Of a DNA stretch of 64,000 nt, positions 6,717 to 54,707 are shown piece by piece. A program made the position numbers and the translations under genes. Below the pieces are notes generated by a model. The model was not told the origin of the DNA, did no database searches, and worked only from the letters and a program-made list of their open reading frames with translations. Numbering within the stretch: the stretch's first letter is position 1; each line of letters starts with the position of its first letter. The stretch is from Polytrichum commune (taxonomy: Eukaryota; Streptophyta; Polytrichopsida; Polytrichales; Polytrichaceae): assembly GCA_950295325.1 (NCBI GenBank), contig OX485806.1, positions 43,517,169 through 43,581,168 on the forward strand, given 5' to 3'.

Positions 6717-7212
6717 GGACGAAGCTATTTTGCGAGCGGTGAGCGGTGAGCGGTAACTTCCGCGATATTTTTATTAAAATGTTATTTCAAGCAGTAAATT
6801 TAGGGTATATTTGGACTAAATGTATTTTAAGTAAATTTTTTTCTAAACTTAGTGAACAGTGGGACCTATGACCGTGGACAATTAAGGGCTATGATATAGG
6901 AAAAAATGTTATAGTATCAGTGAAAAATATGGTTTAGGGGCTTAAATTGAACATTTGGAACTAATATCAATAATAAATATGGGTTTCTCTCAAGTCAAAC
7001 ACGTAATGTTTCAGTACAAGGAGAATTAGTGGTACTCTAAAAAGGTCACGCAACTTTGGAAAAGAGAAATACATGTGGTGCGTCAAATGTCTTGTAGTGG
7101 CCCTTTTAGTATCACTACATCATGATTATAAAAAATCTTGCATACATATGTTTCTTTAAAGAAACAGAAAACTCTAAGAGTCAAGGTACTTCAATAAACC
7201 AACATCCAAAAC
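6717..7212. other. Candidate transposon end and 3' flank of the transposase gene
   Basis: At 6716/6717 the tandem repeat stops inside a unit: elsewhere ATCAAC is followed by TTCTAACCC, here by GGACGAAGC. The new sequence begins with a directly repeated GAGCGGT (6734-6754), then a small inverted repeat GCGG-TAACTT-CCGC, then AT-rich DNA up to the transposase stop codon. This looks like the terminus of an inserted element, but I found no matching inverted terminus elsewhere in the window except the mirror copy near 51,558. I see no gene here. Confidence 0.5.
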
Positions 7213-10200
7213 TCACTTCACTTCGTTGAAGCTAAAACTAGCTGCATGAATGAACGTGTCTGAATCTGAGTCCAAACCACACACTACAGTAAACAAATAG
7301 TACAAATGCTTACAGTTGGCCCATTGACCCCTTTTTCCAATTGCTTTAGTCGCCATGTCCTTATAGTTAGGACAAGTGCATGCTGGCATCTGCGAAATCG
7401 TCAAGTAGTATTGCTGAACCTTTGGGGGCGTGCCGGAATCCAAGGAGACGATGCATCCTAAGGCAGGGGCTGGAAGCATGCACAGTTTGTGCACTTTGGC
7501 TTTCAGTGATAGGGCTGAGGCACAATTATTGGCGTGTTTTGTTGACGGGGCCTTCTTGTTGCGCCTAATCAACTTCCCTGAACGCCGGGTGGGAAACTCA
7601 TCTGGATATGCAGGAGTCGTGTAGCTTGCTAAGTCCAAAGGTAACGGGTGGTCCTGAAAAATTCTGGAAGGTGTCATCTCCTTCCGCTGGGGCAGTCTAA
7701 AGCCTGCGTTTTCTAAAAAGAGGATCTTTTTGCAGGTTAAGTTGGTCCCCAACTTAACCGGCCATACCTCCGGAACGTTCAGGACTGAGACCACCCACCT
7801 CCTTTTTGTACCCTTAACGCATCTCTCAATGTCGTCATTGCAGAAAAAGAAGTCTTGAGGGTCCAATCTCTTCTTCCGATAGTTATCCATGAGGCATGAG
7901 TAGGTAGGTGCAGCGGTGCTCTTCCCGTCTTGTACAATCCGAGCGACGCACTTCTTCTTGGTGATTGCTTGTAGAGCAAAGCAAGCCTTCGCAGATGTCT
8001 TAGGCAGCCATGCGATGTGCCACTGGGCAGGGTTGCATAATGTCTCCTCAATCGCGGTGACGTGGTGCCGATCCACCCGCTGCGGAGCATCGTGTGTTGG
8101 AAATTGCGGTTGGTCTTCATCTGCAGTTGTGGGAGAATGTGGAGTTGTCACAGGAGGTGGAAAATCATTCAGTCGGGCAGATCTGGTTTGGACGCGTGGT
8201 CGGGATATACTGATCTTGTCTGGCCTGTGAGATTCACGTTCGTCACCGAACGCAGTATCCGGTTTACGCTTCAGAGAAACAAATACTTCTTCCCCTTCGA
8301 GGTGGGGAGTCCTGGTGCACCACTCGTCACCACCAGGCATCTTCAAGATGGCCTCATGCAGCGGTTTCGAGATTCCTGTTTTTACGGCAGACCTCTGAGC
8401 ACGCCTCAACTTCAATTCCTCCTTCGACGGTCCAGTTCCAGGGTTCTCTCCCTTTAGGAATTGGGAATATGCTGAGCACTGCATGAAAGCACGCACAAAG
8501 TCATCGATTGTTGCCACATAAAGGTCGCTGCCCCGATCGCCAGATTGCTGCTTCCACTTGTTGTGGATAGATTCAACAAGGTTACAGGATGGCATTTCCG
8601 CTAGTTCAGCTTCACTTAGATCTTGCAATGCCCATACAGTCTGAATTAAAATAATGGCGGAATCAATGTAGTTGAACCATAAAGTGGGAACTATACAGGA
8701 AATATAGAAGGAAGTATAGACTTACCAACTCCATAAATCCACCCCATTGGCGGTAACGGAAATGCCAGAAGGCCAGCCAGAGCTCAAGTCGAGGTAGACC
8801 TTGTTCAGTTGCTGCCCCGGATGACATCCACCATGCCCGAATTGCCAAATACTTTGTCTCGGCCTCCGCCATCGATTTCGCATTCTTGTATTGCTGGCAT
8901 AGTATTCGATGCTGATGTTGCAGGTCTTGACGGATATCGGCCTTGGTATGTTTCTCCAAGGACTGCGTCCAATGGAAAAGACAAGTCCTCTCTTTATCCA
9001 CCATCTTCTTAGACGCATCTCCATTTCCGTATATGATTCGAACAGCATTCCAGTTGGCTTGGGCACTGTCGGCCATGAAACCTTTAAAATTTACTTTGTC
9101 CACTCCATGTTGAGCCATGAGAGCGTTCAGGGTCTTCCATACGACTGACTGGGCTGCAACATCTTCATACTGCATGTCGCATACTGCGATGGTCATGACA
9201 CGGCAATATGTGGAATCGTACACATGGCAAGCCATTGTCGTCCACGACCTGACCCGTTTGACATGGTCAAACATTATCCAGGAGTTCTCCAAGTCACCAC
9301 CGGGTTGCATTTGTTGGACCAGGTCGACTCCGCTGCCCGGTCCAACTTCAGACATCTTGAAGACAAAGACCTTGTCCATGTCCGCTCCTTGCCCTGGAAA
9401 CCTATTCTGCTGCACGAACCTCCAATTGCTAGCACCGCGTAACTTGGTAATACTGTCCATGACTCCAAAGCGACGCATAGTCCTGAACGTGGTGACTGCG
9501 TTACGAATGTTGGGCGAGGTGAGGTGCTTACACCGATCGAAAATAACTTGCAGCTCGTCCAGCTCCAAGATCTTTTGTGGGTCACCTTCTTTAGCAAGGA
9601 GGAGTGGGCCCAGTACTTCCTTTGCAGTTTCAAGCACAATAGCGGAGCGAGTGGCTGATGGGGTGCATTCGACTTGATCCCAATCAAGGTGTTTGTCAAA
9701 TCGATGAAGTCCCGATGATCACCTGACTTGACGGGATGGTCGTGAGATCCCAAGTGCACACAAGCCCTCGTCATGTGAGGTGTCGCGGTAACATAGTAGA
9801 TCTTGGCAGTGCAGACAGCAACACAGGTGGGAGGGACGTTACATGATTTGCAAACAACGGTCGAACCAGTTGGAGGCTTGGACCCTACTTCAAACAATTT
9901 CTCAGATAATCCTTCCCACTCTGTTTCATTCACTTGGGAAGATGATATTGTGGTCTCGCCGAAGATACTCACAAGCAGGATTGTCGCAACGGAGGTGGCC
10001 CAAAAAAGAAGATGTACGAAACAAAAGCTTGAGATCATTCTGAATATTGGTTGTAATTGTGCGAGACCAAGCATGGCCATCGTACCTTCTATCCATTCCA
10101 CGAAGCAGCTTGGCCTTTGTATTCTGGCCATGGTCACCTAAAGGTGGAAACTCGAAGATAACGTCCCCATCGTAACGAGGGGGAAGGTATTCAACCTGCT

Positions 10201-10819
10201 CGAGTCTGATCGCATCAAAGTTGATAAGAGATAACACACTTTTGGACCGCTTACGAGCTCCAAGGCGCATGAATGAATGAATGATACTGACAACATGACT
10301 TGTCACAACATTGGACCGACTAGGATTACGAGACGGACTAACAGGAGGAGTTGTTTCCTTGCGAACTACTTGTGGAGAGAGCGAAACTAGGACTTTCCTC
10401 TCTGATTTTAGGAATTCAACATCACCGTCGGAATCATCACTCAACTCATATATTGTATTTAGACCGGGCTCAATTTTGACCCTAGCGAGGACCGGTCTCT
10501 CAATGCTAACAGTGGACGACTCCTTAGGTGTTAGAAGTTCAGTCGAACACTCTAACATAGACTCTGAGACTCCATATACACGATATTTTCCAAGCTTCAG
10601 CAACCAGAACGCACCGACGTCATTCTCTACCCTAGTTTGACGAATTGCATGTGAAAGTAGACCGGTATGATTGTCAAAAACTTCTTCTTCGACAAAGATA
10701 GTGACCTCACGATACTGAAACCTCAAACTCAATGTTGCACAAGTGACTATAGCATGACCGTCTTCACCTAATGGAAAGAGGACCGGAACAGAATGAGGTT
10801 CAGCACGAAGCAGGGCCAT
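7213..10819 (-). pseudogene. MULE-like transposase with WRKY/GCM1-type and SWIM zinc motifs (left copy, frameshifted)
   Basis: Start ATG at 10,819 (MALLRAEPHSVPV). The N-terminal part is low-complexity and carries a C-x4-C pair (RCDNPACEY), then CKSC and GSHDHP, together resembling the C-C-H-H zinc ligands of WRKY/GCM1-type domains. A transposase-like core follows with aspartates in ACHVYDST and FMADSAQANW and a later FHWTQSLEKH block. An 85-bp intron (8725-8641) splits the core from a C-terminal exon that ends in a SWIM-type C-x-C...C-x-H motif (ACTCPNYKD then ANCKHLYY near 7,300-7,390). Two frame breaks are visible, near 9,948 and 9,700. In both, a neighbouring frame continues the same domain, so I read them as single-base losses, not introns. 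Known role of the family: cut-and-paste DNA transposition in the nucleus. MULE assignment is from domain order, not from a search. Confidence 0.75.
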
Positions 10820-11206
10820 AGTAAACCACTGAACTCTGAACAAAACAAGTACTCTGAACATTGAAATGGCGAGAATATATAACAGGAAAGAAATTACTGT
10901 GCAAACTGGTAATTTATGTACCAGCAAGCGGAATTTTAGAAGTTAATAGAGAGTCATGCAGATAAAGATGAAAGACGGCTGAAAACCCAATTTTGAATGC
11001 AAGTCCGAGATAGGTAAGAAGACGAATAGTAGAATCCTATAAAAGGCATCCATATCAAATAGTATAATTCAAGAACAGACATACATTCTAAACATTGATG
11101 ATTATAATATATATTGGCAAATAAGGTCATAAGAATGACGGCCGCCAAGAATAATGTGGAGAGCATGATAGTAGCTCGGCAATAATATTAGAATGCTACA
11201 TTGTGA
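10820..11206. other. Spacer between transposase and small ORF
   Basis: AT-rich stretch upstream of the transposase ATG. A CAG lies eight bases before the ATG in gene direction, so a 5' UTR intron may end there and the small upstream ORF may belong to the same transcript. A hydrophobic 70-codon ORF on the minus strand has no supporting feature. Confidence 0.4.
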
Positions 11207-11635
11207 TTAACGACGAAGACGCTTATGGGGCCCTTTGCCATTTTTGTCACCGTCATGTTTATGACAATGGTCAATCCCTAAACTATGAACTGCAGTGCAT
11301 CCTGCGCAACCGATTCCCTGACCTTGGGGACGTGGGGCACTCCTTAATAGAGATCTAGAGTAAGTGCCCGGTTTAATAACCCCTACTCTAGAATAGGCAT
11401 GAGTCTGTAAAGTAGACTTGTCCTCTATCAGCGTTGCAACATCCGTCTGCAAAGATGGAGTCCGGGGATGTGGACTCTGAACTGCGACCGCCGGAGTTAC
11501 TGAGCAGTAAGGTGGGTTTAGAATCTTCATGTTGTTGACGTCTGGAAAACCATCAATCGACGATGTGGTGTGGATTTGTGATGCACTAGGAGCACCTAAA
11601 GGAGCAAGGCTCGGGAGACTTGAGTCAGTACCCAT
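11207..11635 (-). CDS. Hypothetical small protein with Cys/His-rich basic C-terminus (left copy)
   Basis: About 142 codons from the ATG at 11,635 (MGTDSSLPSLAPLG). The ORF is open about 20 codons further upstream, but this ATG lies about 50 bp after a TATA-like TATATAATA (near 11,690), so I prefer it. The protein is rich in Ser, Pro and Thr and ends in a compact Cys/His and basic tail: CAGC, then DHCHKHDGDKNGKG and PHKRLRR, which could be a nuclear-localisation or nucleic-acid-binding tail. I do not recognise a family. It lies just upstream of the transposase on the same strand and could be a 5' exon of it or a separate accessory protein. It is intact and identical in the other arm (46,640-47,068). 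Confidence 0.5.
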   Translation of the reverse strand: MGTDSSLPSLAPLGAPSASQIHTTSSIDGFPDVNNMKILNPPYCSVTPAVAVQSPHPRTPSLQTDVATLIEDKSTLQTHAYSRVGVIKPGTYSRSLLRSAPRPQGQGIGCAGCTAVHSLGIDHCHKHDGDKNGKGPHKRLRR

Positions 11636-12060
11636 TGGAGAAGAATATGATGAGATGAGATGAAAGAATGGGTACAAGTAATCAGGTATTATATACACCT
11701 AGGGTAGACAGCAATGCCCGAATATTTGATAACCTGATAGATCAATTAATAGTCAATAGTTATTTATGTAAATTCTGGACAACCTGTTTCATGTATGAAT
11801 AGAATGTACTGCAATAGTAGTCATCCCTTTATCACCACGAATTATCTGACATGGAAGGATACGATTATGTAGAAAAGGATTTAGCGCCGCCTTTTGTAGT
11901 GTATTAATGTTGTGTGGATTAACAAAGGATCAATTTAAGTAACTGCAAATTAACTATCTAAATACAAGAAAATGTGAACATAATGATGGCGCATAGATGT
12001 TAATTCTGACAGACTTGAAAATGATATATAAGATATGTTTGCTTCAGATGTTTGTTAGAG
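11636..12060. promoter_or_regulatory. Divergent promoter region between small ORF/transposase and ParB-methyltransferase gene
   Basis: Two TATA-like boxes face outward: TATATAATA on the minus strand near 11,690, about 50 bp before the ATG at 11,635, and TATATAA at 12,025-12,031 on the plus strand, 30 bp before the ATG at 12,061. The roughly 300 bp between them are AT-rich with no ORF. The arrangement suggests a bidirectional promoter serving both arms of the element. It is duplicated at 46,215-46,639. Confidence 0.55.
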
Positions 12061-15000
12061 ATGAACACTAGGTCGAGAGCAAGAGCAGAACGAGAAGTAA
12101 GGAGGAATAGTGAGAAACAGAGGCGAATTGAGAGAAGGCAAAGGTTAGAATCAAGAGAAAGCTTAGGGACGCCGTACAATTTGCGGACAACAATGGGTAG
12201 AAGAGGGGTTACTTCTTCTAAGGGTACAGGTAGAGGTTCCAAAGGGGAAAAGGCGTTTGATGTTGAAGCGGTAGCTCCCATCGTTTTATTTCCAGTAACG
12301 GAGGAAGACAACCCAGAGGACAAAGGGGGCAGTGAGGTGTTGTTTATCAAAAATCCTCATGATATTGTTTTCTTTAAAAGCGTAATGTGAACCACTCTCA
12401 AGGATAATTAGAACAGTTGAGACCCAATAGCTACCCTTTATGTTGGTTTTTATATTTTTGGTGATAGGATGTAACTTGGATTACGTTTGGGCATCTGGGA
12501 CAGGGAGTGACGCAAACACAGCTTCAACCTGGTGCAGCCTCGAGTGCCTCAACATCAGTTCATAGTGAGGAGCAGGTTTGTGAAGACTGTTCTCAATTGG
12601 TGAATTTTAGGGTTTTGGGTCAAGGGTAATGTTTATTTCCAATGCCAACAGTTTATGAGGCCAACTTCATAGCTAAGGAGCACATGATATATCCACTTAA
12701 CAGAGCATAGGAGATTTCGATCGGGACGCTGAGGTTGCTGAGTTAAGCATAGGAGAATTCGATGGTGACGCTGATGTTGTAGATCTTTGTGAAGGCAGCA
12801 TGGATAATAAGGAGAGGCACTTTGGGGAAGAGGTAGGCTTGCCCACACCGAATTCTAATGTGGATCATTCGTGCAATCCTTGAATTTGTTTTCTCGTGCA
12901 AGATTCGAAGATGAAAGGTGTGACCCAAAATTACCTGGATTGTAAGGCTCACTAGCCATTGTATGGACGATAAAGGACCAACCCAAAGGAGTCCATTAGT
13001 GCTGGTTTGTTTTGTTTTCTGAGCTTGTTTATGCATATGGGTGCCGAAAGGGAGAATTGCGGAATCCATGTCAATTATGCCTTATGTTGATGGTGAGGGC
13101 GATTTAGTCGTTCTTGAAGTCTCGGGACCGAGACATACTTGTAGGCAATGTTCGCTATATTGAGGGATGCTTGCAATGGTAGTTTTATTGGGGGTATTAG
13201 GTTTTATTAGGGTATTGGGTTTTAGGGATTGAGTAGGAAGTATATGGATTTCACGCTGTCAGGATTGCCGCAAGCATTGATGTGGTCTGAATTAGTCTGA
13301 AGTGGTCTGAATAGGTTATAATTGAGTTTAGTTTGGATGATTCTGGCTAAGGGATTAGGGTCAAACTGTTGTTTGAAGAGGCTGCTTTGAAAACTATTGT
13401 GTGTCTCGGTCCCGAGATACTCTCAGGGAGGGTCTGCTTTCAGATTTAGTTTGGGATATGATAGGTAATTCCAAGAACTGAAGTGAATTTAGTATCGAAT
13501 GCCGAATGCACTGAAGTTGTCTGAATTACTCTTGACTGGTCTGAATTAGTTATAATTGATTTTAGTGTGGATGTTTCTGGCTAGGTGATTAGGGTCAAAA
13601 TGTTGTATCAAGAGGCTGCTTTGAAACTTATTGTGTGTCTCGGTCCCGAGATACTCTCAGGGAGGGTCTGATTTCAGAATTAGTATAGGATTTGATAGGT
13701 AATTCAAAGAACTGATATGACTTTAGTTTTGAATGCCTCAAGCACTGCAGTTGTCTGAATTACTCCTGAGTGGTCTTAATTAGTGATAATTGATTTTAGT
13801 GTGGATGTTTCTGGCTAGGTGATTAGGGTCAAAATATTGTTTTAAGAGGCTGCTTTGGAACTTATTGTGGATATCGGTCCCTAGACATTTACAGGGAGGG
13901 TCTGATTTCAGAATTAGTCTCTGATAGGATAGGTTATTAAGAGCACTGAAATCAGTTTAGTTTCGAATGACGAATGCACTGATGTTGACTGAAGTAGTCT
14001 TAAGTGGTGTGAATTGGTTATAATTGAGTTTAGTGTGGATAATTCTGGCTAAGGGATTAGGGTCAAACTGTTGTTTGAAGAGGCTGATTTCAGAATTAGT
14101 TTCTGATAGGATAGGTAATTCAAAGAACTGAAATGACTTTAGTTTCGAATGCCTGAAGCACTGCAGTTGTCTGAATTACTCTTGACTGGTCTGAATTAGT
14201 GATAAATGATTTTAGTATTGATGTTTTTGGCTAGGTGATTAGGGTCAAAAAGTTGTTTAGGGTTTAGGGAAGTAGTCATAAGTGGTGTGAATTGGTTATA
14301 ATTGAGTTTAGTGTGGATTATTGTGGCTAAAGGATTAGGGTCAAACTGTTGTTTGAAGAGGCTGCTTTCAAACTTATTGTGTGTCTCGGTCCCGAGATAC
14401 TCTCTGGGAGGGTCTGATTTCAGAATTAGTTTATGATAGGATAGGTAATTCAAAGAACAGAAATGACTTTAGACTGAATTTACTATTGACCGAGCTGAAT
14501 TAGTCATAATTGATTTTAGTGTGGATGTTTCTGGCTAGGTGATTGGGGTCAAAATGTTGTTTCAAGAGGCTGCTTTGGAACTTATTGTGTGTCTCGGTCC
14601 CGAGACACTTAAAGGGAGGGTCTAATTTCAGAATTAGTTTCTGATAGGATAGGTTATAAAGAGCACTGAAATCAGTTTAGTTTCGAAGATGAATGCACTG
14701 AAATTGTCTGAATTACTATTGACTAGGCTGAATTAGTCATAATTCATTTTAATGCGGATGGTTTCTGGCTAGGTGATTAGGGTCAAAATGTTATTTTAAG
14801 AGGCTGCTTTGGAACTTATTGTGTGTCTCGGTCCCGAGACACTTAAAGGGAGGGCCTAATTTCAGAATTAGTTTCTGATAGGATAGGTTACAAAGAGCAC
14901 TGGAATCAGTTTAGTTTCAAAGATGAATGCACTGAAGTTGTCTGAATTACTATTGACTAGGCTGAATTAGTCATAATTGATTTTAGTGTGGATGTTTCTG

Positions 15001-18000
15001 GATAGGTGATTAGGGTCAAAATGTTGTTTTAAGAGGCTGCTTTGGAACTTATTGTGTGTCTCGGTCCCGAGACACTTAAAGGGAGGGTCTGATTTCAGAA
15101 TTAGTTTCTCATAGGATAGGTTATTAAGAGCACTGAAATCAGTTTAGTTTCGAAGATGAATGCACTGAAGTTGTCTGAATTACTATTGACTAGGCTGAAT
15201 TAGTCATAATTGATTTTAGTATGGATGTCTCTGGCTAGGTGATTAGGGTCAAAATGTTGTATTCAGAGGCTGATTTGGAACTTATTGTGTGTCTCGGTCC
15301 CGAGACACTTAAAGGGAGGGCCTAATTTCAGAATTAGTTTATGATAGGATAGGTTACAAAGAGCACTGGAATCAGTTTAGTTTCAAAGATGAATGCACTG
15401 AAGTTGTCTGAATTACTATTGACTAGGCTGAATTAGTCATAATTGATTTTAGTGTGGATGTTTCTGGCTAGGTGATTAGGGTCAAAATGGGTTTTTCAGA
15501 GGCTGCTTTGAAACTTATTGTGTGTCTCGGTCCCGAGACACTTACAGGGAGGCTGTGATTTCAGAATTAGTATATGATAGGATAGGTTATTGAGAGCACT
15601 GAAATCAGTTTAGTTTCGAATGACGAATGGACTGAAGTTAACTGAATTACTCTTGACTGGTCTGAATTAGTCATAATTGATTTTAGTGTGGATGTTTCTG
15701 GCTAGGTGATTAGGGTCAAAATGTTGTTTCTAGAGGCTGCTTGAAATTTATTGAGTGTCTCGGTCCCGAGACACTTATAGGGAGGGTTTTTGTTCAGAAT
15801 TAGTTTCTGATAGGATAGGTTATTAAGAGCACTGAAATCAGTTTATAGGGAGGGTCTGATTTCAGAATTAGTTTGGGATTTGATAGGTAATTCAAAGAAC
15901 TGAAATGACTTTAGTTTCAAATGCCTCAAGCACTGCAGTTGTCTGAATTACTCTTCACTAGTCTGAATTAGTCATAATTGATTTTAGTGTGGATTATTCT
16001 GGCTAAGGAATTAGGGTCAAACTGTTGTTTTCAGAGGCTGCTTTGAAACTTATTGTGTGTCTCGGTCCCAAGACACTTACAGGGAGGCTCTGATTTCAGA
16101 TTTAGTATATGATAGGATAGGTTATTGAGAGCACTGAAATCAGTTTAGTTTCGAATGACGAATGTACTAAAGTTGACTGAATTACTCTTGACTGGTCTGA
16201 ATTAGTCATAATTGATTTTAGTGTGGATGTTTCTGGCTAGGTGATTAAGGTCAAAATGTTGTTTCAAGAGGCTGCTTTGAAACTTATTGTGTGTCTCGGT
16301 CCCGAGACACTTATAGGGAGGGTATGATTTCATAATTAGTTTCTGATAGGATAGGTTATTAAGAGCACTGAAATCAGTTTAGTTTCGAATGACGAATGCA
16401 CTGCAGTTGTCTGAATTAGTCTTGACTGGTCTGAATTAGTCATAATTCATTTTAGTGTGGATGATTTTTGCTAGGTGATTAAGGTCAAAATGTTGTTTGA
16501 AGAAGGTTGCTTGGAAACTAATTGGATGTCTCGGTCCCGAGATACTTACGGGGTGGGTCTGAATTGATTTGATGTGGTCTGTCTCGGTCCCGACATACTT
16601 ACATTGAGGGCCTATTGGTTAGTATCCTAAGGTTGTTTTGAAATTATATGTGTGTTTTGGTATACATTTTGCGCTGGTTTAGCAATGACTGCCTGAATTT
16701 TATTGAAATGTTGTTATACACTGTATAACTGGTTTGATCATAGAATGTATCGAGCTTGCCGTCTCCTGCAGGTAGAGAACAACACAAAGGATGTTGTTCC
16801 TGGTCTTTCTCAGGTTTCTCTGGACAATTCCGAAGAGGGGCAGGATGAAGATGAAGAGGGGCTTGGAGATAGAGATCCATATGAAGGTGATGAAGATGAT
16901 ATCAGGACCCGACACAAACTTAACTCCGTTGCCACGATTTCTCAACTGAGAGTCGAACCCCTGAGTTCCTCAAGGTTCCATATTCCCTTGTGCAGAATGT
17001 TGGCCATGCCTATGGTGAGGCCAACTCTCTCAAGTGATCTTGCTAAATTGGAGCAGGAGTTTGTCCATGGGTATAGAGAGGGTGCCTCAGTATTTTATGT
17101 CACTATAACGGATGAAGAAGGCAAAACACATGAGGTGACTGAAGCGCATAAGGCATCGTGGGGTCCTATTTGGAGTGCCAAAAATGAAGAATTCAACTCC
17201 TTTCTTCTATCCGTTCCGGAGTTAGCCAGTTTTAAGAACTTGATGTTCTTTGTTTGTGACGGGAACCATAGGCGGCAAGCTTGGCTCAATCATATTCAAA
17301 GACTTCACAAAACAGAAGAGGCCTGGCATTTTTCGGTGGATAGCATCCTCCTTGACACGAAGGGTAAAATTGGTGTTGTTATGCAAGTTATGCATAACAT
17401 CAACAAGTAAGTTTTCATTACTTAATGTTTTCATATATGTAGAGTACTTTAAATATACATATATTTTAATTTGCCTATCTTTACTCTATGATTGTTATTT
17501 GTAGACATACTGAAGACTCTCACGTCAAGACCAACACAGTTCACACTCTATTTAGGGTGCAGAAGTATGGACTTATGCCGCTCGAACAGTACCAAGAGAT
17601 ATTGACTCCAGCTGACATTAAAAGGTGCAAGAAATCTTAAAATGCTAAGAAGACGTGGTATTCATTAAATCTACATGTTTTTACGAACTTCATCTTCCAG
17701 GTATAATCTCTATAGTACTCACTCTGAATGATTTATTCCCTCGTTTTTTGTCTTTAATTTTATTTCACATTAAGCATGTTGCTGCTCTATTCTTTGTCTA
17801 TATTTCTTTGTCTATATGACTTTGCTGACATAACAGAATAACTACCCTGACAACCACTGTTGGCTAACTTATCACTTGAGTTTAGCTTCTTTTTTGTCCG
17901 AAGCTTGGATTTGCCTTCTTTTTTGTTTGAAGCTTGGGTTCTGAGATTTGGTTCAAGACTAAGCTAGTCGGCTCCTGTGTTGTCTTTTATTTTGGCTAGA

Positions 18001-32110: not shown

Positions 32111-32377
32111 TGTTTGAAAGTTTCTCATTGAACTTTCTCACAGTTTGTTTGATATTGAGAATTATTGGAAGAACAACCTGCTCTACTCCAAATTGTCTGC
32201 ACAACATCTTTGAAAGGTATTGTGTTTTATTTTAACCAATATGTGTTTGTATATTCACGGTTTTGTAGCATACACAATGCATAAGCATTGTATATGCTAG
32301 ATGCCAAGTTTTAAAAATATATTAAAAGAATATTGTTTGGGGAGACGACCCAAATACAGCCCCAAACACAGCCCCTT

Positions 32378-32698: not shown

Positions 32699-34058
32699 TA
32701 ACTTTGCGCATTATTTTCTTACAGATGGCTCCAAAGAAAAGACCCGGCGAAAGGTGGTTCATGCCTGCGCCGGACATGTTGTGGCAGGAGCACGAAACCC
32801 CGCAGGATGACTCCTATTCCCCTAAGGACGGGCTTGTCCTCGCTTGGTCTATTCAAGTAGTCAAAGCCTCAACATACAAAATGATTTTTGTTGTCAAGGT
32901 GGGAACCGTGGAGAAACACACCTGGGCGACTCTTACGGGATGGGAGGTCGCATCGTTACAGTCTCTTGGAGATTATACCGACGTCATCCTCGAGAACTCG
33001 GCTGTGCAGAACGCGCATATGTTCATGCACCAGTTCTCCGAGCCTTTCGACGCACTCTATGCAAGAGAGTCCTGTGTCGAACCGGACGTTATCAAGCCGG
33101 AGACAATATTTATCGATGGGAGTACATCGAATACCAAGGTCTCAAGCCGGTTCACAAAACTAAAACATGCAATAACCGTGCTGAACAGGGCCTGCAAAGC
33201 AAAACCAAATCACAGCAACCTGTGAGGCGGAAAGCTCCCACAGAGGAAGGAGCAGGGTCGTCAAGACCTCAATTGGTGAGGATGCCGCTACCAGTACCGG
33301 CTGACTCGCGTAGGACCACTCCCTCCCAAACACCTACGAATAGTGAGACCCCTACACCTTCTGGGAGCCGTCAAACAACTCCATCCAAGAGGGCGAGAGA
33401 GTCATCTGTGATGATTGACGAGCCAGTCTCACCGGAGTTGCGCATGCCGAAGCCCGGCGAAGAGGTGGATGCAGGGGAGCTGCAGAAAATTGTGAACAAT
33501 TTCACGACGAAATGCTCCCACTATTTTTTCATGGGCAGGGATTTCAAGTTCGACGTGAACATCAGCCAGTGCCATCTAGCGCCACCGGAGAAGTGTGTCC
33601 GGGCAAAGGAGGACGCCTACGTTGACTGGATAATCGCGAAGATCGTTTGCGAGCAGTTTAAAGACGACAGGCAAACGATTGTAGTGATGCCACAGGGTCT
33701 CAAGAAAATGCCTACACCTGAAATGTGGCCAACAATTCAGAAGGGCGATTTTTGGCTGATAGACGGCCAACACAGCGTGGAGGCATCCAAGAAAATCCAA
33801 CTCATGAATGAGTGGGACGATCCCAACAATAAGAAGGAAAAGCTGAAGGTTTGGAAGGCACTGGTGGTGTGGTTTGACGACGAGACCAAACTCAGCGACA
33901 TCTCCCGGTACTTCAATATGGGAAACAAGAAGAGGGCCTACCAAGCTTCCTGGATAAGGAATATCATGGCCTCGCGGGAGGTGTGGGAGTTCTATGGTAG
34001 GCCTCCCAAGGAGAGGGAGAATGCGAAGGACAAGAATCCCAAGTAGGAGGTGAGTATT

Positions 34059-34229
34059 GTTTGGGTCGACCGACCCAAACTCCTGGTGCAGTCTTGTGTT
34101 TTTTTTAGTTTGGGTCGATCGACCCAAACAACTGTTGCAGTCTTGTGTTTTTTTAGTTTGGATCGATCGACCCAAACATCTGTTGCAGTCTTGTGTTTTT
34201 TTTTTCAGTTTGGGTCGACCGACCCAAAC
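34059..34229. repeat. Four type 2 palindromes in an intron of the type 2 gene
   Basis: At 34,059-34,080, 34,108-34,129, 34,156-34,177 and 34,208-34,229. The repeating unit is about 49 bp, with GTTGCAGTCTTGTGTTTTTT between copies. Centres vary (AC, AT). The intron begins with GTGAGT at 34,051 and the next coding block starts near 34,320. Confidence 0.9.
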
Positions 34230-35179
34230 TCTTGTTGTAGATGTTGGTCATGATATGGTTTGGAAAACACATGTACTTAACTAACACGCATTCAAATGTT
34301 CTGTTTTGTTCACGTGCAAGATTTCAAATACCAAATGATCAACAAATTCTCCTCCATTGATAATTCGAGCCACAAGCAGAAGAAATACAGCGACCTGAAG
34401 GGGGAGATTTACTTGATTACAGCATCGGACTCAGTTTGGAGGAAGTGGAAAACCGTGTTTGAAAAGCACGAGACGGGGTATTTGATCGACCCCGACATTG
34501 GCGCTTTCTTCAGCCTGGCCTCGCGCTTCAAGCAGATGAAGCCTCTCGTGAGAGAGTTCTAAAGAACTCTTCAAGGGCTGTCAGAGACGGAGGTGGAGAA
34601 GACGGCATCGCACATCCTGCACGTGGCACCCACGGCCAAGAGGTGCTGGGTGCACCCGAAGATTGTCTTCGTAAAGCCCAAATCCTTCATTCCTTCATGC
34701 TACACCATGAAAGAATGGACGGAGAACAGGAAAAAGAAGACGACTATCGTGCAGGAGCTGCATAAATTGGTGCCAGAGAGGAATATTGTTGTGGACGGCG
34801 AGGTTCATGGGGCTAACTGGAGAGCATTCAAAGATGAATATAAGTTCACCAGTGCCTTCATGGCGGCTCTAATAAGGGAAGCGGGGGACGACTTCTTGCG
34901 GCCAAGATGGTGAAGGGTGGGAAGAACCGGGCGCTTCCGGATCACACAGCGCGTGCGTTCTCGAACTTCATCAAGGAGAAGAAGATTGTCCAGTTTGAAG
35001 GGGACGCTTACTTCAACCTTGTCACCTTCGAGCCTTTGAAAATTCAGGGTTGGCCAGGTCAAGACGCCAGAATGGCGATAAGGACGAAAGCAAGGGACTG
35101 CTTTCCTTTTGGGATGATTGATTTTAGAAATATTCCTGGAAGCTCATTTGAGGGCACGATGAGCACCCTCTTCTACAAC

Positions 35180-38018
35180 TGTGGTACTTTTGGGCCACCC
35201 CCTTTCGAGGGAGCCTAAAAGTATCACACAAGCCCTTCGGTGAAGGTGGCCTGCATTTGCAGGCGCCCAAGCCGAACCCGGATGATAGGTGTATAACGTG
35301 AGTAGTTAGATTTTTAAGGGAGATTAAATATGCGTCGTAGTACCTCCGGAGGTTAGGCCTTAGTTTTTTACTAGTGTGGCTTTAAACTCCACTAACCAAT
35401 TTCATATCTAGTTCTAACCTTAACCTACAACCTATTCTACGCGCAGACGCACCAGCCTTGAAACCAAGGCAATCCTAATTTGTGAATTGGGATGGTTCTG
35501 ATACACCCAACCGGGTGTGACTCATACCACCCTAACTCAACGAACGGAATAACGACAATTTGATGGACCATTCAATTCTTCCTATTTCTTTATTTAGTTC
35601 TATTTAGTTTTCTAAGCGGGGGAACTTGGCCTAAGTCCCACCCTTCACACAAATTCCTTCTTAATTACTTACTTTTGTTTGCACGTCCTAACTTACTACA
35701 TTAACATATTAGGCATCACCCCTTACCTCGGGTCTCTTGCCAACAAGGGTTTACGATTTATTTTGTATGTTTTGATTGTTAAATGTGTTTACACTGGATA
35801 GACCACGAAATGCAACTCAATGGGACCAGGGTGACGGGCGACCTGTAGGTTCAACCTGTTGCGCAATCTTCATAAATTGGGGCCATTACTCCCAATCTAT
35901 GGGGCCAACAACATAATAATGGATTCGCGGGTCATTAACCCCACCTTTCCACCAACAACATTCAGAGTGGTCGTGTCGGTGATTAATCCGACTTACCACA
36001 CACGAAACTTGCTAATAAATGAAGCTACTACCACAAAACATACCAAGGGCCCCGAAAACAATGGAATTGGGTACTCCCTTGGCGGTCAAGTGGTCAAGCC
36101 ACTTGACCTTACGAGATAGGTGAGTGGGTTTAGAGATGCGTACCTTAGCCGTGCTCCCTCCAATCCTAAATGGAAGGCTTAAGGTTAGTTAATTTACCTC
36201 AATTTTCCTCGGTTGATTTGGGCTTGATGTAGGCCGAGCCGCTACTTCCTTCCTTGCTCCACTTTCCGAGCGTCGACCTTGCCTCCTTCTTTGTAACTAG
36301 TTTGGTAGTAAGCGTACCTTAGTTAACAATTAAAATATAAAGTGTTATTCTGCCCTGTAATTTAATCCTAAGCATAATATTTATACTTAGTGCACCAAAT
36401 TATCTTTCCAATGATCTAAAAATCACTCTAATCGGATAAGAAATGCAAAAGTTATGAGGGTTGGAAGTGTGAGGTCGATTCAACCGACCCTTCCAACCCA
36501 CCTATCTACCTTCTAACTTCAAGAATTCATAGCACATTCTTTACTACTTGGATCTAGGCTTTCCTTATACCATTGGAAAGCTATGAACAAGCTCTAACTA
36601 GAAAAATTATGACATCAGCAGGTTAAGCTAATAGAAATTCAGCGGACTCCTTGTAACACAGCAGTCAATCAAGAAGGCTTAAACTATGTATCTCGCCTTC
36701 AACAATTCATATCTAATTCAAATCTTCGTCAAATCAAACGTTCTATATGACCCTGGAGAGATATTAAAAAGATGTATTTGATAAAAATATGTGATTAGAA
36801 AGGTAAGCCGAAGTGAACCCAGCAGGTCCTCTGTAATGCAGCAGTCAACCAAAAGTTCTCAAACTATGTGTCCCATCTTGCACAATTCATATCTAATTCA
36901 AATCATGCTCAAATCAAATTTTCTAAGCCATTTTGGAAAGCTACACAAAAGTTCTACTTGGGAAAAATATAATTTCTTGGAATTAAAATTCCTATTGGGC
37001 TCGCAGGTCTGATCCAGCAGCCGCTACCCACAAGACCACCCAGTTTTTTTACTCCATCTTTGAAAATCCATAACTAATTGTCATCTCAACCAAATCACAA
37101 ATGGGAAACGGCTATGGATAGCTATATGAAATCTCTCTAAGAGAAAAATGATAAGTATCTTGTTCTAGCTTTTGAACTAAGCCTTCAGGGCATTGGCAGA
37201 TGAGGTCTATAATGCCTCTACTCAAAACTCTACCATCCAACCTACCTCTACAAAAGAAGGAATAATTTTGTTGGTGTGTTAATAAACACACAACCTAACT
37301 AGGAGAGAGAGAGTAGAGGAGGTTCTCAAGCCTTTCTTTTAGACCATTGAGAATACATGCTAAAGGATTTTTTCCTAACTACATTGAAGCAGGGCTTCGC
37401 CCAAAAACTAGAGAAAGAGAGAGAGCTACAAGGTGGAAGGAGGGGTTTTTAAACCCTCTCACAAAAGGGTTGGACCCCTCCTCCACCGGATCCATTTTTC
37501 AAACCCTTTCCCGAAATTTTGGCTCGGGGGTTTTCCCGGTTGAGGTTGCCACCCTCTCGCCGAGGTGGCTCCGACAAAAAACCTTTAGAAATCTTTCTAA
37601 TTTTTCCGCCATCGAGTTGGCAAGGGGGCAAGTGGGCAAGTATCCCCCTTGCTCTCTTTCTTTTTTGTCTTCAAAATTCTTCACGCCGATTTTATCTTCT
37701 TACGTAAAACACCTCCAATAGCCTTGTGTGCCTCACACTAACTAATAAACTAACACTTGCTTAGCTAGCATCTACTAACATTTGCTTAATAACTAGCATC
37801 TACTAATATTTGCTTAGCTAGTTGTTTTTACTAGCTAGCACATTTTTTCTACTTTGCTATCTTCTAGCACTACTTAGTTTCATTTTGACCTTCCTTCTTC
37901 TAGGCTAAATGCTAAATGAACTAATTTTTCCTAAATTCCCTATCAATTCTAACTTTTAATGCTAACATTCTAACTAAAAGTGATCCCGCAGAGTGGTGGA
38001 CCACTCAAAGGGTTCACA
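35180..38018. mobile_element. 2,839-bp insertion with 5-bp target duplication (solo-LTR-like)
   Basis: Begins TGTGGTACTTTT and ends GGGTTCACA, so the ends are TGTG...CACA. It is flanked by ACAAC at 35,175-35,179 and 38,019-38,023. With the insertion and one ACAAC set aside, the host reading frame continues without a shift from ...STLFYN to PFLIKF... No intact ORF, primer site or second long repeat is seen, which fits a solo LTR or a non-autonomous LTR element. Between about 36,460 and 37,160 it holds degenerate repeats of about 190 bp (ATTCATATCTAATTCAAATC, CAGCAGTCAA). ORFs near 37.35-37.7 kb have no supporting features. Confidence 0.85.
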
Positions 38019-38522
38019 ACAACCCCTTCTTAATTAAGTTCATCGATTATGCAAGCCCTAAGTTCAGGGAGGTAGATATCTGGCTTTGGATAGTCGAGGA
38101 TAGAAGGGCGGAGCAGGTGTACGAGCTTGTCCGGAAACTGCAGCCGGAGTATGCAGTGTCCAAGTTTCACTACATCGCCGCACCGGTGGAGGGGGCTTAC
38201 ACGACGTTGAAGGACAAGAAGACCAAGTTCGTCAACGTCTTGTATTTGTACTTCGTGTACAAAGCGGAGTTGCTGAAGGTGCCGAACCACCCTATATCCC
38301 GGATGGACAAACTCTTCCAAGTTCCAGAAGGGTTGGGTGCGAACAAGTGCCTCTACGACGAGGCTAAATATGCGAACTATCCTGCAGATGAGCTGCGGAT
38401 GGAATTTTACATGGGAATGATGAGGACGCTGACGAGGAGAGGGGACTGCATCTTCAACATCTTCGGAGGCTCAAAACCTGTCTATGCTGCTATGGTAAGT
38501 GATTTTCTATAGCTCGTAAGCA

Positions 38523-38580
38523 GTTTGGATCGACCGACCCAAACTAGGCTCTTTGCAGGTTTGGGTCGACCGGCCCAAAC
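38523..38580. repeat. Two type 2 palindromes in the intron within the methyltransferase-like domain
   Basis: At 38,523-38,544 and 38,559-38,580, inside the intron 38,495-38,654 (GTAAGT...GTGTAG). One base in an arm differs in each (GGAT, CCGG). Confidence 0.9.
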
Positions 38581-39742
38581 TACACATTTCACTTAGTCTT
38601 GTTTATGTGACTGCCTCGACAAATTCTAATTTCCCTATAACTTGGATTGTGTAGATGTCGGGGCTGAATATATACTCCTACATAGAGGATGGCGATCTGC
38701 CATTTTATAGGGTGCAGAAATCGCTGGCGAAGAAGATGGACATCCTCGATTGGATCCCGGGTAGCTACGTCGACGAGGTTGTTCAGGGTGGCGAAAACCC
38801 TCTTGATAGGGTGAGGCGCATCAACCCGGAGGAAATGGCCATGAGGGCCACGACCCAAGTTCCCGAACCTCTGGTCGGGTTGCATCCGGGCAATCCGTCC
38901 CGCACAGAAGGTGGCGAGGTTGAGGAGGCGGAGAAGGAAGGCGACGTCGAGGAAGGGGCAACGGGCTTCACGCAACAATCCGAAGCCCCTCAACGGAAGA
39001 AGGCGATGCGGGCGGCAACCCCGCAGAGTAAGCTCGTGCCCGTCCTGACTGTGGACGATGCGCGGGACATGTACTCCAGGGACGCCACCGCGACGTTCAG
39101 GGAGAGGAGGAAGTTAAAGGGGAAGAAGCTGTATGGCGACTACTCCGTGGAGGAGACCATTGCCATAAGCAGCGAGGACGACGATGACATTGAGCTCGCC
39201 AAACGGCTAAGATCAGATCCCCCGTCCCCGACAGCGTTCGCTGGCATGGTTAGGGTGAAGCCCGAGGTCCTGACTGTGGAGGAGGCGAACGAGAAGATGA
39301 GGAGGGACGAGGAGCAACGCGTCCGTCTGCAGAAGGCTGCCGCGGAAGAACCCTCAATGCGGAACGAGGTCGCACAGCTGAGGGTTCTCCTGTTGGAGCA
39401 GGAGCGTCAAAGGGCGATGGCCCAACCTCCGTCCCACGCCGACTTGATATTACAATTGATACAAGGAATGTGGGCGCAAGGTTTGGTGGTGGCTCCGTCC
39501 AGCTCCTTCCCGCACTTGCCCCCTGGCTTCCCTCCGCAGAGCATCCCTCAGCAGCCTGTGCCGCAATCGTCTTTCAGCTTCCAGCACTTGATGCGGCCCC
39601 ACCAAGTTCCGTACGCGCCGGTCCAGCAATTGGATGACCCCAACATCTGGCGCGTCTCTGGAGCCTCCTCCCCTTTGGGCCCTCCACCACTTCGGCCCCC
39701 CATAGTCATGGCACCACCCCACCAATCGGACGACCCCAGGAT

Positions 39743-39833
39743 GTTTGGGTCGACCGACCCAAACCCACCATCCACTGTAGTGTCCGAAGGGCCCTCTCCA
39801 GATGCAGGACAGTTTGGGTCGGGCGACCCAAAC
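39743..39833 (+). repeat. Two type 2 palindromes inside a coding exon
   Basis: At 39,743-39,764 and 39,812-39,833, within the open frame of the Pro/Gln-rich tail. They are read as FGSTDPN and FGSGDPN. The second has a GG centre. A further copy at 40,134-40,155 lies just past the donor at 40,113. Confidence 0.9.
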
Positions 39834-40112
39834 CCCGTTGCAGCGCAGTCCTCCCTTGACCAACATGGGTGTCAACTAGACACGGCCATGCTAGATGTTG
39901 AAGGCCTGCAAGGGCCTGGTGATACCTCTACTCCTAACCAAATCGATGAACCCATGCATGATGCACATGCGGAGATTGGTTTAGGACAAGGGCCTGATGC
40001 CGATGGTTTGCAGGATAAGGTTCCTGACGTCGTCGGAGAAGGCGGTGGCGAGAGAGGCGGGGCAGCGGGGACAGTGGAGGCTTCCACATCGTCGAGACAT
40101 GACCAGGGCGAG

Positions 40113-40593
40113 GTAATACACTGAGCCCTCCCAGTTTGGGTCGACCGACCCAAACTTCTTGGGTCATTGTCTTGTTGGCCTGGTCGTGTCCCCTTTGCTA
40201 GGAGGAAATGCACACCCCCTTGCCCCCCCCTGCTCTACACTTGCTCCCCCTGCCCCCAACGTGCCCCCCCGCGATCCCCTTCGTCTCGTCTGCATTCGAC
40301 TACGCTCGACCTTGGCGGCGCGCAACCAATTTTGTAGATGTAGAATTAGGATAGTGTGAATGCCCTCGTTCACCGCGCCCCCCCCCCCCCCCAATCAAAT
40401 TGTACATAGAGATTTGTAAAAATAAAATTATTATTTTTGGCGCCCATATGTTTGCATCCGTGTCCCAATGTATGTTGTTCCCTTGTATGTTTTTGTTGCC
40501 ACCAATGGTCCAATTCTTCTTGTGTTTCCGTTCTGCTTGAGATGGACATAGCATAACATAGTCCTCGCCGCCTTCTCTCGCTCGTCGCCGCAG
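40113..40593 (+). other. Intron of the type 2 gene with one palindrome and a poly-C tract
   Basis: GTAATA donor at 40,113, CGCCGCAG acceptor ending 40,593. It contains a type 2 palindrome at 40,134-40,155 and a C run of about 14 bases near 40,379-40,392. Short ORFs on both strands are not supported. Confidence 0.6.
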
Positions 40594-41406
40594 GGTTCGG
40601 AGCATAGCGTCGCAGCTCCCCACCGATCCTCTCCGAGGAGTGTGGAGGATAGCGCGGTGGTCCCCCCGATTTTGCCCTCGCCACCTTCGCCTCCCAAGAC
40701 CTGGTTCTTGGTGCTAGACCTCAACGGGGTCCTTGTCCAGTGCGTGCATTGTCCCAAGGTCCCCACGGTGCCTTTCTGCAAGCCCGAGGACGCCAACTAC
40801 GATGGACCCCCCGCGTACATCAAAAGCAAGTTAGTGTACCTCCGCCCGTCCCTTCGGCGCTTCCTACAGGTCACCCTATCCAAATGGTGGGTGATCATTT
40901 GGAGCTCCATGAAGTCCGAGAATACCCAGGCCGTCGTGGAGTTCATCTTCAAGGGACTCCAACCCCCGTGCTTGGTCCTAGGACAAGATTCTTGTAAAAC
41001 ATTGTACACCCCCGAGGGCAGGGTTGTGAAGAAACCCAACAACCCTGCCGTAAATCAATTTCTTAAGGTCTTGAAGCCAGTTGTATGGGACCAGCGTCCG
41101 ACCATGGTCGGCTGTCCCTACGACGTTCGCCCCACCCGTGACAACACGTTGATGGTGGACGACAACGCTTCCAAAAACATTTTGAACCCGACCTCGAACT
41201 TCATAGTTTGCCCCACGTGGACGGTCGAGAAGGTCCAAGACCGCTTTTTGTTAGACCTACTTAAGTACATTCAAACGCTCGTGGGGAGCGGACTACCCGT
41301 GCCCCGGTTCCTTAGTTGTAATCCGATAGGCGAAAGATACATGGATCCGAAGGACTATATGTACAGAGAGTTGTACGCTCACGCGAAATATAATAAACTC
41401 ATTTGA

Positions 41407-42264
41407 GATACTACATGGTGTGCCATTGTGTGTGATATATTATGCCTCAATTGTATATCGATTTTCACATGCTCCCCCCTCCCTCCCTCCCCTTGGGTTT
41501 TGTTTTGTTTCCTTTTTTGCGCCAGCGTTTGGAGCCCTCGATTGAGATCGTCAGCGAATCAAACTTGGGGAGCTTCTTCTACGAGATCGTCTACGATGCC
41601 GCGTCCACCATCGACTACTCCAAGGAGCCTCTTGACGCCGGCGTCGTCGATAGCCCCCCACCCAAGCAAATCTTCCGGCGATCTCCGTCCCCGTCGCCGC
41701 TCAAGGGCATAAATCGCAAATGCGTCCAGACGTCCCCCTCTCGGCCCGGCGGCAGTAGTACACCTCAACGGCGGCTGCGGATGGACGCTCGGCCTACGAA
41801 GCGTGGCACCCTTCCTATTCCTTTGCGGGACGCATTGCCCCTCCTCGCCAACTCCGACGAGAACGCCCCCGGTGACAAGGTGAACCCCCCCCCCCCCCAA
41901 AACATGGTTAACCGCGCATTACAATCATCCGGCACTTAAAAAATGAACGTGTGACACGTTTGGGTCTTCCTCCCTAAACTAACACGTGTGTTCTTGCATT
42001 CACGCGTTGCAGGTTGCTCCCACCCGTAAACCTATGCGGGCTAGTACGTCCGTCAAGTTGGAGCGTTTCTACTCCATGACCAGAAATGCAAGACAGTCCA
42101 CTTCATCGTATTCGAATTCTTCGTCGTATAATTCGGGCGGCCGACGGAATCCAAAATGTGTTATTGATGGCGGTCACCCCAAGAATGGCTATAGTCGCGG
42201 GGCAGAGATTTTCAGGAATGTTGAAGCAATGCGAGCAAAAGAAGCCGCAGCAAAAAAAAAATAG
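41407..42264 (+). CDS. Two 3' exons of an unidentified protein, perhaps of the same transcription unit
   Basis: Open frames 41,525-41,880 (after acceptor GCCAG; RLEPSIEIVSESNLG...) and 42,014-42,264 (after GTTGCAG; VAPTRKPMRAS...) join in phase at GACAAG|GTGAAC. The product is Ser/Pro/Arg-rich and ends in a Lys/Ala-rich tail (EAMRAKEAAAKKK). I recognise no domain. No start codon is convincing, so these may be alternative 3' exons of the gene ending at 41,406. A degenerate type 2 palindrome (41,958-41,979) sits in the intron. Confidence 0.45.
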
Positions 42265-42837
42265 GCCAAAAAAAAAGAGGTAGTCTCCGAGGCTAGATAG
42301 GCCATAGTAGGCGTAGGGTTTTGGGCCATAGGCAAGAACATTTTGGGTCGCACTATCCAATGGATGTGTTGTGTTAGCATGCTATGCATTTTACATGCCA
42401 CACTTTGTATGTTTTTTTTTGCAATAATATAAATGTCACATGATTTCCCCTTCCATATGGTCTAAGGTTTGGATTGCCCTACCTAAACCATCACAAATAT
42501 GAGTTTGGAATATTTTGTATGTTATATTATATTGGTTCACATATTTCCCCTTCAATATGATCTATGGTTTGGATTGCCCTACCTAAACCATATTCATACA
42601 AGTTTTTGTGCGATAATATGAATGTTTTAAGATTTACCCTTCAACTTGGCCTAAGGTTTGGATTGCCCATCCTAAACAATCCCAAATATTGAGTTATTAA
42701 TGGGGTTCTTGTTCTAAACACCCGCTTCAAAGTGTTCGCATCTTACAACTTTCTCCAATATGTGTTCCATTTATCCTTGTTCTTATTTCTGTGAATGTCT
42801 CAAAATGCCCAAAAAGTCTCAATTTAACGAATATAGT
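42265..42837 (+). repeat. Degenerate type 2 palindromes and direct repeat copy 2
   Basis: Three related imperfect palindromes (GTTTGGATTGCCC...TAAAC) at 42,467-42,488, 42,567-42,588 and 42,656-42,677, about 95 bp apart. From 42,656 to 42,837 the sequence repeats 30,492-30,672 in the same orientation. It may be the 3' edge of the type 2 element. Confidence 0.65.
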
Positions 42838-54629: not shown

Positions 54630-54707
54630 GTAAGTACTCACGTAGTTACATAATGTGTGAATTAGTTGTACCTTATGCCATGCAGCTTTGTGTCTTAAAT
54701 ACATACA

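Follow-up and report, generated by a model that had tools for sequence, protein, structure and literature searches.

Palindrome families accompany ParB-like accessory genes in two types of DNA transposon of Polytrichum commune

Introduction

Why would DNA transposons with unrelated transposase genes each carry dense short palindromes beside an accessory gene of the same general kind? The question is raised by a stretch of 64,000 nucleotides from Polytrichum commune (assembly GCA_950295325.1, contig OX485806.1; C4:43,517,169-43,581,168, forward strand), which we call the window. The assembly comprises 407.8 Mb in 64 contigs, seven of them 42-78 Mb long. An original prediction, made from this sequence, placed a transposase-type gene reading left and an accessory gene reading right at each of two loci, and both divergent pairs are present: a MULE-like gene with gene 1 (element 1) and a DUF7869 gene with gene 2 (element 2). 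Introns are present in the window genes.

We propose that an accessory DNA-binding protein with a ParB-like region is encoded by DNA transposons whose transposases are of at least two types, DUF7869 and MULE-like; in the MULE-like elements, a catalytically dead beta-class methyltransferase would be added to it. This protein would bind, probably as a symmetric dimer, palindromes mostly of 18-22 bp (half-sites of 8-10 bp, 2-bp centre) that lie scattered through its own element, in the tandem satellites, the introns and the promoters. The many clustered bound sites would then mark element copies as self and keep host silencing off, as VANC does on VANDAL elements. We judge it probable that the accessory protein is the palindrome binder. 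Self-recognition by sequence, leading to anti-silencing, would be the most likely reading, with about an even chance of being right. The identity of the binder, its dimerization and the anti-silencing outcome are steps that we infer, and autoregulation and transposase binding are the main rivals.

Palindromes follow the accessory genes

A de novo scan for palindromes with 9-base arms bore out the palindromes that had been noted. Counting arms of 9 bases around a 2-base centre, the window holds 46 perfect palindromes; 20 order-1 Markov sequences averaged 0.75, and in none of them did a palindrome family exceed one copy. The family P1 (GTGTCTCGG-NN-CCGAGACAC) has 25 perfect copies; a perfect inverted repeat of 9,088 bp contributes seven of these through its second arm, leaving 18 that are independent; P2 (GTTTGGGTCG-NN-CGACCCAAAC) has 17. 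The palindromic form of the sites suggests a two-fold symmetric binder. Three-copy palindromes of the GACTTCCAT and GGCGCTGTC types were also seen, at window positions 55276, 56671 and 62763, outside both elements, and at 227-1072 of the left-hand neighbouring locus, L031. With 9-base arms, the window set is the sole repeated family there besides P1 and P2.

Genome-wide, there are 997 perfect P1 sites and 9,731 perfect P2 sites, and the reversed control sequences gave 0 and 0. The places listed were 50 for P1 (contig C1 up to 19.86 Mb) and 100 for P2 (C1 up to 2.16 Mb). The listed P2 sites form seven clusters, and 97 of the 100 lie in six clusters with either a DUF7869/gene-2 element (three clusters, 81 sites) or the transposase or accessory gene of a second MULE-like family, MULE-B (three clusters, 16 sites). 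In the seventh cluster, of 3 sites, the 10 kb read contain nothing more than an array of another palindrome, P3, and a fragment of a transposase. For P1, 49 of the 50 listed sites lie in five clusters with a gene-1-type ParB-like or methyltransferase match, and one site stands alone. Each palindrome had been predicted to be private to its element; the association with such genes is what the genome-wide scan upheld, and exclusiveness failed for P2, which is common to DUF7869 and MULE-B elements.

The association was also read from the gene side. Fourteen gene-1 copies were picked across the identity range from the 150 matches listed of 1,242 gene-1 candidates, palindromes being ignored in the choice, and are named here by their percent identity. 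Within 2.5 kb upstream, repeated or degenerate palindromes were present in six copies and absent from eight. Perfect P1 stood upstream of the 91% and 87% copies, with degenerate P1 only at the 94% copy; P4 (GGGTTCGG-GA-CCGAACCC) stood upstream of the 82% copy, P2 and P3 upstream of the 47% copy, and a P5-like site (GGTTTCGG-TA-CCGAAACC) upstream of one 44% copy. When four of the eight blank copies were extended to 9.5 kb, repeated palindromes appeared in all four: P5 at the 80% copy, P5 and P6 (TACGAACG-NN-CGTTCGTA) at the 79% copy, P7 (GTGCTTTC-N6-GAAAGCAC) at the 43% copy, and P8 (AATCCCACGG-AT-CCGTGGGATT) at a 44% copy. Six control loci of 10 kb (five picked, and the right-hand neighbour of the window) gave no repeated palindrome in the same scan; L031 was excluded from the controls because it holds the rest of a second gene-1 copy. 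Among the gene-1 copies listed on C1 below 19.87 Mb, perfect P1 accompanied 4 of 6 with at least 83% identity and 0 of 3 with 75-76%. In the copies read, the type of palindrome changes with the gene subfamily, and at least six types are found.

Palindromes are more constant than the satellites that carry them

Many of the P1 sites of element 1 lie in tandem repeats. A 245-bp satellite, A (4085..6716), lies 3' of the MULE-like gene, and a 234-bp satellite, B (13117..16600), lies 5' of the ParB-like exon of gene 1; a further copy of satellite A with P1 sites occupies positions 1..1839, where the second gene-1 copy presumably has an intron. Satellites A and B, which flank the MULE-like gene, differ from one another. 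In the output shown they match only around the palindrome (19-25 bp, and one match of 39 bp), which is essentially the sole part they have in common. Within the satellites, the 20-bp window on the palindrome ranks 5 and 7 of 221 overlapping windows in conservation, with a mean identity of 0.96 and 0.98 versus 0.87 and 0.88 elsewhere.

These comparisons bear on whether the arrays might be ordinary satellites that hitch-hike with the elements, with a palindrome that nothing binds. Most sites are indeed in tandem repeats, and three-copy palindromes occur in repeats that lack such genes as well. Against hitch-hiking, one and the same palindrome is found in different satellites and at non-repeat sites (P2 lies between genes, in a presumed intron and in an open reading frame [ORF]), its constancy exceeds that of the rest of the satellite unit, and the palindromes differ with the gene subfamily while mostly keeping one design. 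We regard hitch-hiking as highly improbable.

Most arrays keep about 2 CpG per palindrome and are otherwise CpG-poor, a contrast that is supporting evidence only, the sites having been picked by similarity to a consensus, which favours intact CpGs. It is clearest where 11 P1 sites hold 22 CpG and the 1,381 bp outside them hold 0. In the P2 array between the divergent genes of element 2 (27430..28181; 13 sites, 10 perfect), 24 CpG fall inside the sites and the observed-to-expected ratio (O/E) of CpG outside them is 0.09. Outside the sites, O/E was 0.17, 0.23, 0.24 and 0.09 in four window arrays and 0.58 in a fifth, sparse stretch; six arrays elsewhere gave 0.28, 0.04, 0.08, 0.29, 0.52 and 0.00, and the six control loci 0.35-0.63. 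The contrast is weak for P3 (0.52), P4 (0.53) and the second P5 array (0.41).

MULE-B elements share P2 with the DUF7869 element

The MULE-B family, read at loci L024 and L029, has transposase exons that are 33-55% identical to those of the window's MULE-like gene and an accessory protein that is 44% identical to gene 1. Its P2 sites lie between two transposase exons and, in L029, also 5' of the accessory gene. Binding of transposases to repeated motifs near the element ends is common, and the palindromes might be bound by the transposase rather than by the accessory protein, with a role in synapsis or excision. Palindromes on both sides of and inside transposase genes are in keeping with this, as are the degenerate P2-like sites that recur close to the right end of element 2. 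Transposase binding is, however, hard to square with P2 in elements whose transposase genes are unrelated (DUF7869 and MULE-like), with sites in introns and ORFs distant from the ends, and with the different palindromes carried by MULE-B and by the window's MULE-like family (MULE-A), despite transposase exons that are 33-55% identical; we consider it unlikely.

L029 also holds an array of P3 (CCCTGTGCGTTAACGCACAGGG), a perfect palindrome of 22 bp, at 6775-9050; further P3 arrays are at L025 1511-2638 and in L051. The L029 array is upstream of a TATA-like sequence (recognized by eye), and P2 sites are downstream of that sequence, 5' of the ParB-like exon. This is an arrangement that an autoregulator might use, the accessory protein binding palindromes close to both its promoter and the transposase gene and thereby limiting copy number, and sites between divergent genes would likewise suit an operator. 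The copies read, however, carry roughly 10 to 40 sites per element, spread over several kilobases and into introns and ORFs, which exceeds a simple operator, and autoregulation seems an improbable account of them.

P2 occurs in two element types, and P5-like sites accompany both 80% and 44% gene copies; specificity is therefore not one to one. As to P2, either both proteins recognize one site, or the protein of one element is being used by the other.

The ParB-like region is conserved and the methyltransferase has lost its catalytic motif

Both accessory genes had been described as ParB-methyltransferase-like. A ParB-type motif is present in each, FF(V/I)xDGNHR in gene 1 (FFVCDGNHRRQAW) and FWLIDGQH in gene 2 (FWLIDGQHSVEA), which may correspond to the ParB signature, GxxR after a beta strand. 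Profiles of the two gene families align best at this motif, with a score of 18.7 versus a maximum of 16.9 in 40 column shuffles. Neither gene matched the ParB domain (PF02195) in Pfam or NCBIfam, or a ParB protein in PDB; the best ParB-like PHROG gave E=0.11, and a tblastn comparison of gene 2 with phages, in which ParB was sought, returned no match. The ParB label of both genes comes from the motif and is a weak assignment. The ratio of nonsynonymous to synonymous substitution rates (dN/dS) of the gene-1 ParB-like exons against the second copy is 0.18 over 326 codons, and in the gene-2 ParB-like exon 74 of 95 differences from another copy of element 2, e3, are at third codon positions, with dS saturated. 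Gene 1 and gene 2 are under purifying selection.

A ParB-like motif and palindromic, centromere-like arrays could also point to clamp loading or spreading in the manner of ParB from parS-like sites, which would give the elements physical persistence or bring them together in clusters. This idea has no ParB profile behind it, the ORFs scanned with Pfam included no ParA-like match (no dedicated ParA search was made), and integrated elements need no partition; we give it very little probability.

At its C-terminus, gene 1 encodes a beta-class N6/N4 methyltransferase domain (PF01555, E=1.6e-6), scoring 28.7 bits on the cut-out domain (cut-off, 26.7) and 25.5 bits on the whole protein. It matched DpnA chains in PDB at E=1.3e-6; the best phage methylase match reached E=6e-6, and 22 of the 222 records matched spanned 80% or more of the domain. 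A hidden Markov model (HMM) made from 9 phage or plasmid genes and 3 proteins of a large protein collection placed three gene-1 exons at ranks 1-3 of 447 window ORFs. For gene 2 there was no Pfam match to a methyltransferase, and the custom HMM gave 2-3 bits at the motif-I region; only a faint methyltransferase motif I is seen. The methyltransferase part of the earlier description thus holds for gene 1 by profile and finds no profile support in gene 2, and its ParB part stands in both as a motif.

The catalytic motif IV of such enzymes has the form [DNS]PP[YFW]. It is lost in all five gene-1-type copies read: DLPYG in the phage enzyme corresponds to DLPEG in gene 1 and the second copy, to ADIPES in a copy at C1:472.5 kb, and to QFPDG in two MULE-B copies. 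Motif I is altered as well (DCSTTTG, DCTASTG, DLTCSTG). Between gene 1 and the C1:472.5 kb copy, which has internal stops, the methyltransferase exons show dN/dS of 0.10-0.15, and one such exon gives 0.23 between gene 1 and the second copy. The gene-1 methyltransferase should be inactive, because motif IV is lost, and kept over the long term, because dN/dS is low: a predicted conserved dead enzyme. The idea that the enzyme is active and deposits N6-methyladenine (N6mA) or N4-methylcytosine (N4mC) on its own palindromes, as excerpts of PMC12477816 propose for an Ectocarpus protein, would draw on that published proposal and on a true beta-class domain over most of its length (phage match, E=6e-6; DpnA, E=1.3e-6). 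The loss of motif IV in 5 of 5 copies (DLPE twice, DIPE once, FPD twice), with motif I changed and the exons under purifying selection, argues against methylation of the element by the accessory protein and makes this explanation very unlikely.

No homologue of gene 1 at E<=0.01 was found among 7,997 candidates scored in a collection of 5.8 billion proteins, and no relative in three scans of viral contigs. At ten phage or plasmid methylase loci, the annotation shows no ParB fusion among the matched methylase genes; one neighbouring gene, for a protein with ParB and Methyltransf_23, was considered and rejected, as it gave no alignment with gene 1.

Observations that weigh against self-recognition

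Several findings pull against a palindrome-binding accessory protein that marks its own element. On the side of the association, four gene-1 copies (75%, 72%, 46% and 44%) have no repeated palindrome in 2.5 kb upstream, and the control locus L033 has a gene-1-like methyltransferase fragment and no palindromes. L037 and L038, which cover MULE-B genes further downstream, have none either. Of the 9 gene-1 copies listed on C1 below 19.87 Mb, perfect P1 lies within 5 kb of only 4, and those without it include 94% and 91% copies. P7, whose centre is 6 bp wide and whose four copies are identical, with a spacing of 554 bp between three of them, could simply be a tandem repeat. P6 sits at the outer end of the sequence read and could stem from a neighbour, and the CpG contrast is absent around P6 and P8 (flank O/E, 1.05 and 0.85). 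The three-copy palindromes at 55.3-62.8 kb and in L031 have no accessory gene found close by. On the side of the protein, neither an HMM nor an hhalign profile of 15 ParB-type proteins singled out the ParB-like regions, the hhalign score not exceeding those of 40 column shuffles, and AlphaFold2 models of these regions have predicted local distance difference test (pLDDT) values of 38 and 37. Selection is less clear in the other methyltransferase exon of gene 1 versus the second copy (dN/dS, 0.81; 9 differences) and among close gene-2 copies (0.31-0.46, few changes). Finally, P2 is common to DUF7869 and MULE-B elements whose accessory proteins share only a short motif, and P5-like sites go with gene copies as far apart as 80% and 44%.

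A broader version of self-recognition holds that there is a recognition code across superfamilies, in which ParB-like subfamilies, with a fixed dead methyltransferase, read palindromes of one design, MULE-like and DUF7869 elements exchange genes and arrays, and anti-silencing like that of VANC evolved independently. We think this conceivable, at a little under an even chance.

Structure of the two elements and their surroundings

The MULE-like transposase-type gene of element 1 lies at 7213..11698 on the reverse strand, with relatives in L024 and L029. Its C-terminus is SWIM-like by eye. Profiles did not confirm the MULE-like label of this gene: five exons (three from the window, two from L029) gave no Pfam MULE transposase match, and SWIM reached E=0.073, below the cut-off, in one L029 relative. 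Gene 1 (16772..20534, forward strand) consists of a ParB-like exon (CDGNHRRQAW), a coiled region and the methyltransferase exons at 19467-20534. The window copy is damaged by an in-frame stop in the exon following the ParB-like exon; elsewhere in the genome, 102 of 150 listed matches to the ParB-like exon have no internal stop. MULE elements have target-site duplications (TSDs) of 8-11 bp; no terminal inverted repeat (TIR) was found for element 1 in the stretches compared.

The second copy of the gene-1 ParB-like exons (2172..3462, reverse strand) has 82% DNA identity by sequence comparison and appears to run left beyond the window into L031, with a satellite and then methyltransferase exons. 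Compared with 16772-20534, this copy (2172-3462 plus L031 6004-7961) shows dS of 0.63 in the ParB-like exons and 0.04-0.08 in two methyltransferase exons, a mosaic divergence from which the two halves of the gene-1 copies appear to have different histories.

Element 2 is a DNA transposon of 19,167 bp at 23674..42840, with the DUF7869 gene, gene 2 and P2 palindromes. The gene pair had been placed at 24.2-41.4 kb and is there; the real ends of the element are 23,674 and 42,840. Its perfect TIRs of 28 bp match at 28 of 28 positions (23674..23701, forward; 42813..42840, reverse). A 4-bp TSD flanks it in the window (TTGT/TTGT) and in another copy, e2 (ATAA/ATAA), and the profile match together with the TIRs and the TSD in two copies identifies it as a DUF7869 transposon. 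The TSD length would fit the Sola superfamily, whose elements also have 4-bp TSDs.

The DUF7869 gene, predicted as such beforehand, has two long ORFs at 24163..27257 on the reverse strand and matches PF25273 at E=2.7e-42 on 24163-25677. In three further copies its main matched part is 94-98% identical in amino acids, with one piece of 101 amino acids at 77%; dN/dS versus e3 is 0.10 over 415 codons. The 5' part of gene 2 (32725..34043, forward strand) contains the ParB-like region (33537-34043) and is 90-98% identical in amino acids across three copies. Four P2 sites, three perfect, follow at 34059..34229 in a presumed intron, deduced from the reading frames. The 3' part (34281..38509, forward strand) carries the methyltransferase-like motif GDCIFNxFGGSKP, a weak methyltransferase assignment. 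Gene 2 of the window is damaged by an in-frame stop and by an insertion of about 2.84 kb (35176..38019); the segment at 35.2-38.0 kb was considered as a gene-2 intron and rejected, being an insertion that is missing in copies e1, e2 and e3.

Three perfect P2 sites lie at 39743..40155, two of them within an ORF at 38655-40124. A short element at 30425..30672 joins both ends of an element-2 relative, is nested in element 2 and has one degenerate P2 (30492). A NIF/FCP1-like phosphatase ORF at 40552..41406 on the forward strand (PF03031, E=2.2e-13) is present in all three other element-2 copies read, where it is 74-96% identical. Between element 2 and e3 (L027 plus L028), dS is 0.26 in the DUF7869 gene, and the gene-2 ParB-like exon is saturated at synonymous sites, as if accessory and transposase genes had been swapped between elements.

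The 9,088-bp inverted repeat joins 3569-12656 with 45619-54706 at 100.000% identity, and the MULE-like gene and satellite sequence lie within it. No element end found in the compared stretches coincides with the ends of the repeat. Either the duplication happened very recently or the assembly is at fault here. Several repeated segments lie in 54706-64000, for example 58887-59902 versus 62987-64000 (inverted, 91% identity), and the ORF at 60217-60948 is one that we take to be Ty3-type integrase-like.

Comparison with known systems

The gene pair is already known in kind. The original prediction was aware of no described eukaryotic transposon with this set; according to excerpts of PMC12477816, ParB-methyltransferase genes do occur in algal transposons, and the Ectocarpus protein is proposed to methylate. 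That system resembles the present one, by description rather than by sequence, in a protein with ParB-like and N4/N6 methyltransferase parts, encoded on the strand opposite the transposase in a giant DNA transposon. It differs in that those excerpts mention neither palindromes nor loss of catalysis, and the transposases here are DUF7869 and MULE-like. In the open-licence PMC papers, to which our literature negatives are confined, we found no account of such palindrome families, of how they change from one gene subfamily to another, of the catalytically dead site or of the sharing of P2.

Fungal transposons with TET/JBP dioxygenases are similar in that several superfamilies each carry an accessory gene of DNA-modification type; the enzyme there is a dioxygenase, not a methyltransferase, and the excerpted text mentions no palindromes (PMC12730594). 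Fusions of ParB_N and N6_N4_Mtase in the protein collection (P0009-P0011) have the same order, ParB and then a beta-class methyltransferase; unlike gene 1, they retain a PPY motif IV.

The closest parallel is that of the Arabidopsis VANDAL elements, for which sequence-specific anti-silencing has been described: in the excerpts of PMC5735166 and PMC10398659, one protein, VANC, is tied to short motifs that lie in tandemly repeated parts of introns and of upstream regions, and sister families differ in their motifs. Both systems combine a Mutator-type transposase and an accessory protein with a family-specific short motif that is dense in noncoding tandem repeats, though P2 is shared by two families here, and the lack of a TIR in the stretches of element 1 compared is reminiscent of the degenerate TIRs of VANDAL. 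Because the layout is so alike, we take self-recognition with anti-silencing as the most likely reading. If true, this would be a second case of sequence-specific anti-silencing, one that uses an unrelated protein and spans at least two transposon types and at least six palindrome types, and self-tagging would be a strategy that recurs. Naturally occurring pairs of protein and DNA specificities would also become available, in which the evolution of specificity can be studied. The published algal ParB-methyltransferase genes gain a testable target sequence, and the MULE-side proteins of the P. commune genome are argued not to act by methylation. Pfam scans of the window and relative proteins gave no match to the VANC domain DUF1985. 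As excerpted, VANC has DUF1985/DUF287 domains and motifs of 8-9 bp in one orientation; here the protein would combine a ParB-like region with a dead methyltransferase, the palindromes are mostly 18-22 bp, and the same plan is found in a DUF7869 element with TIRs.

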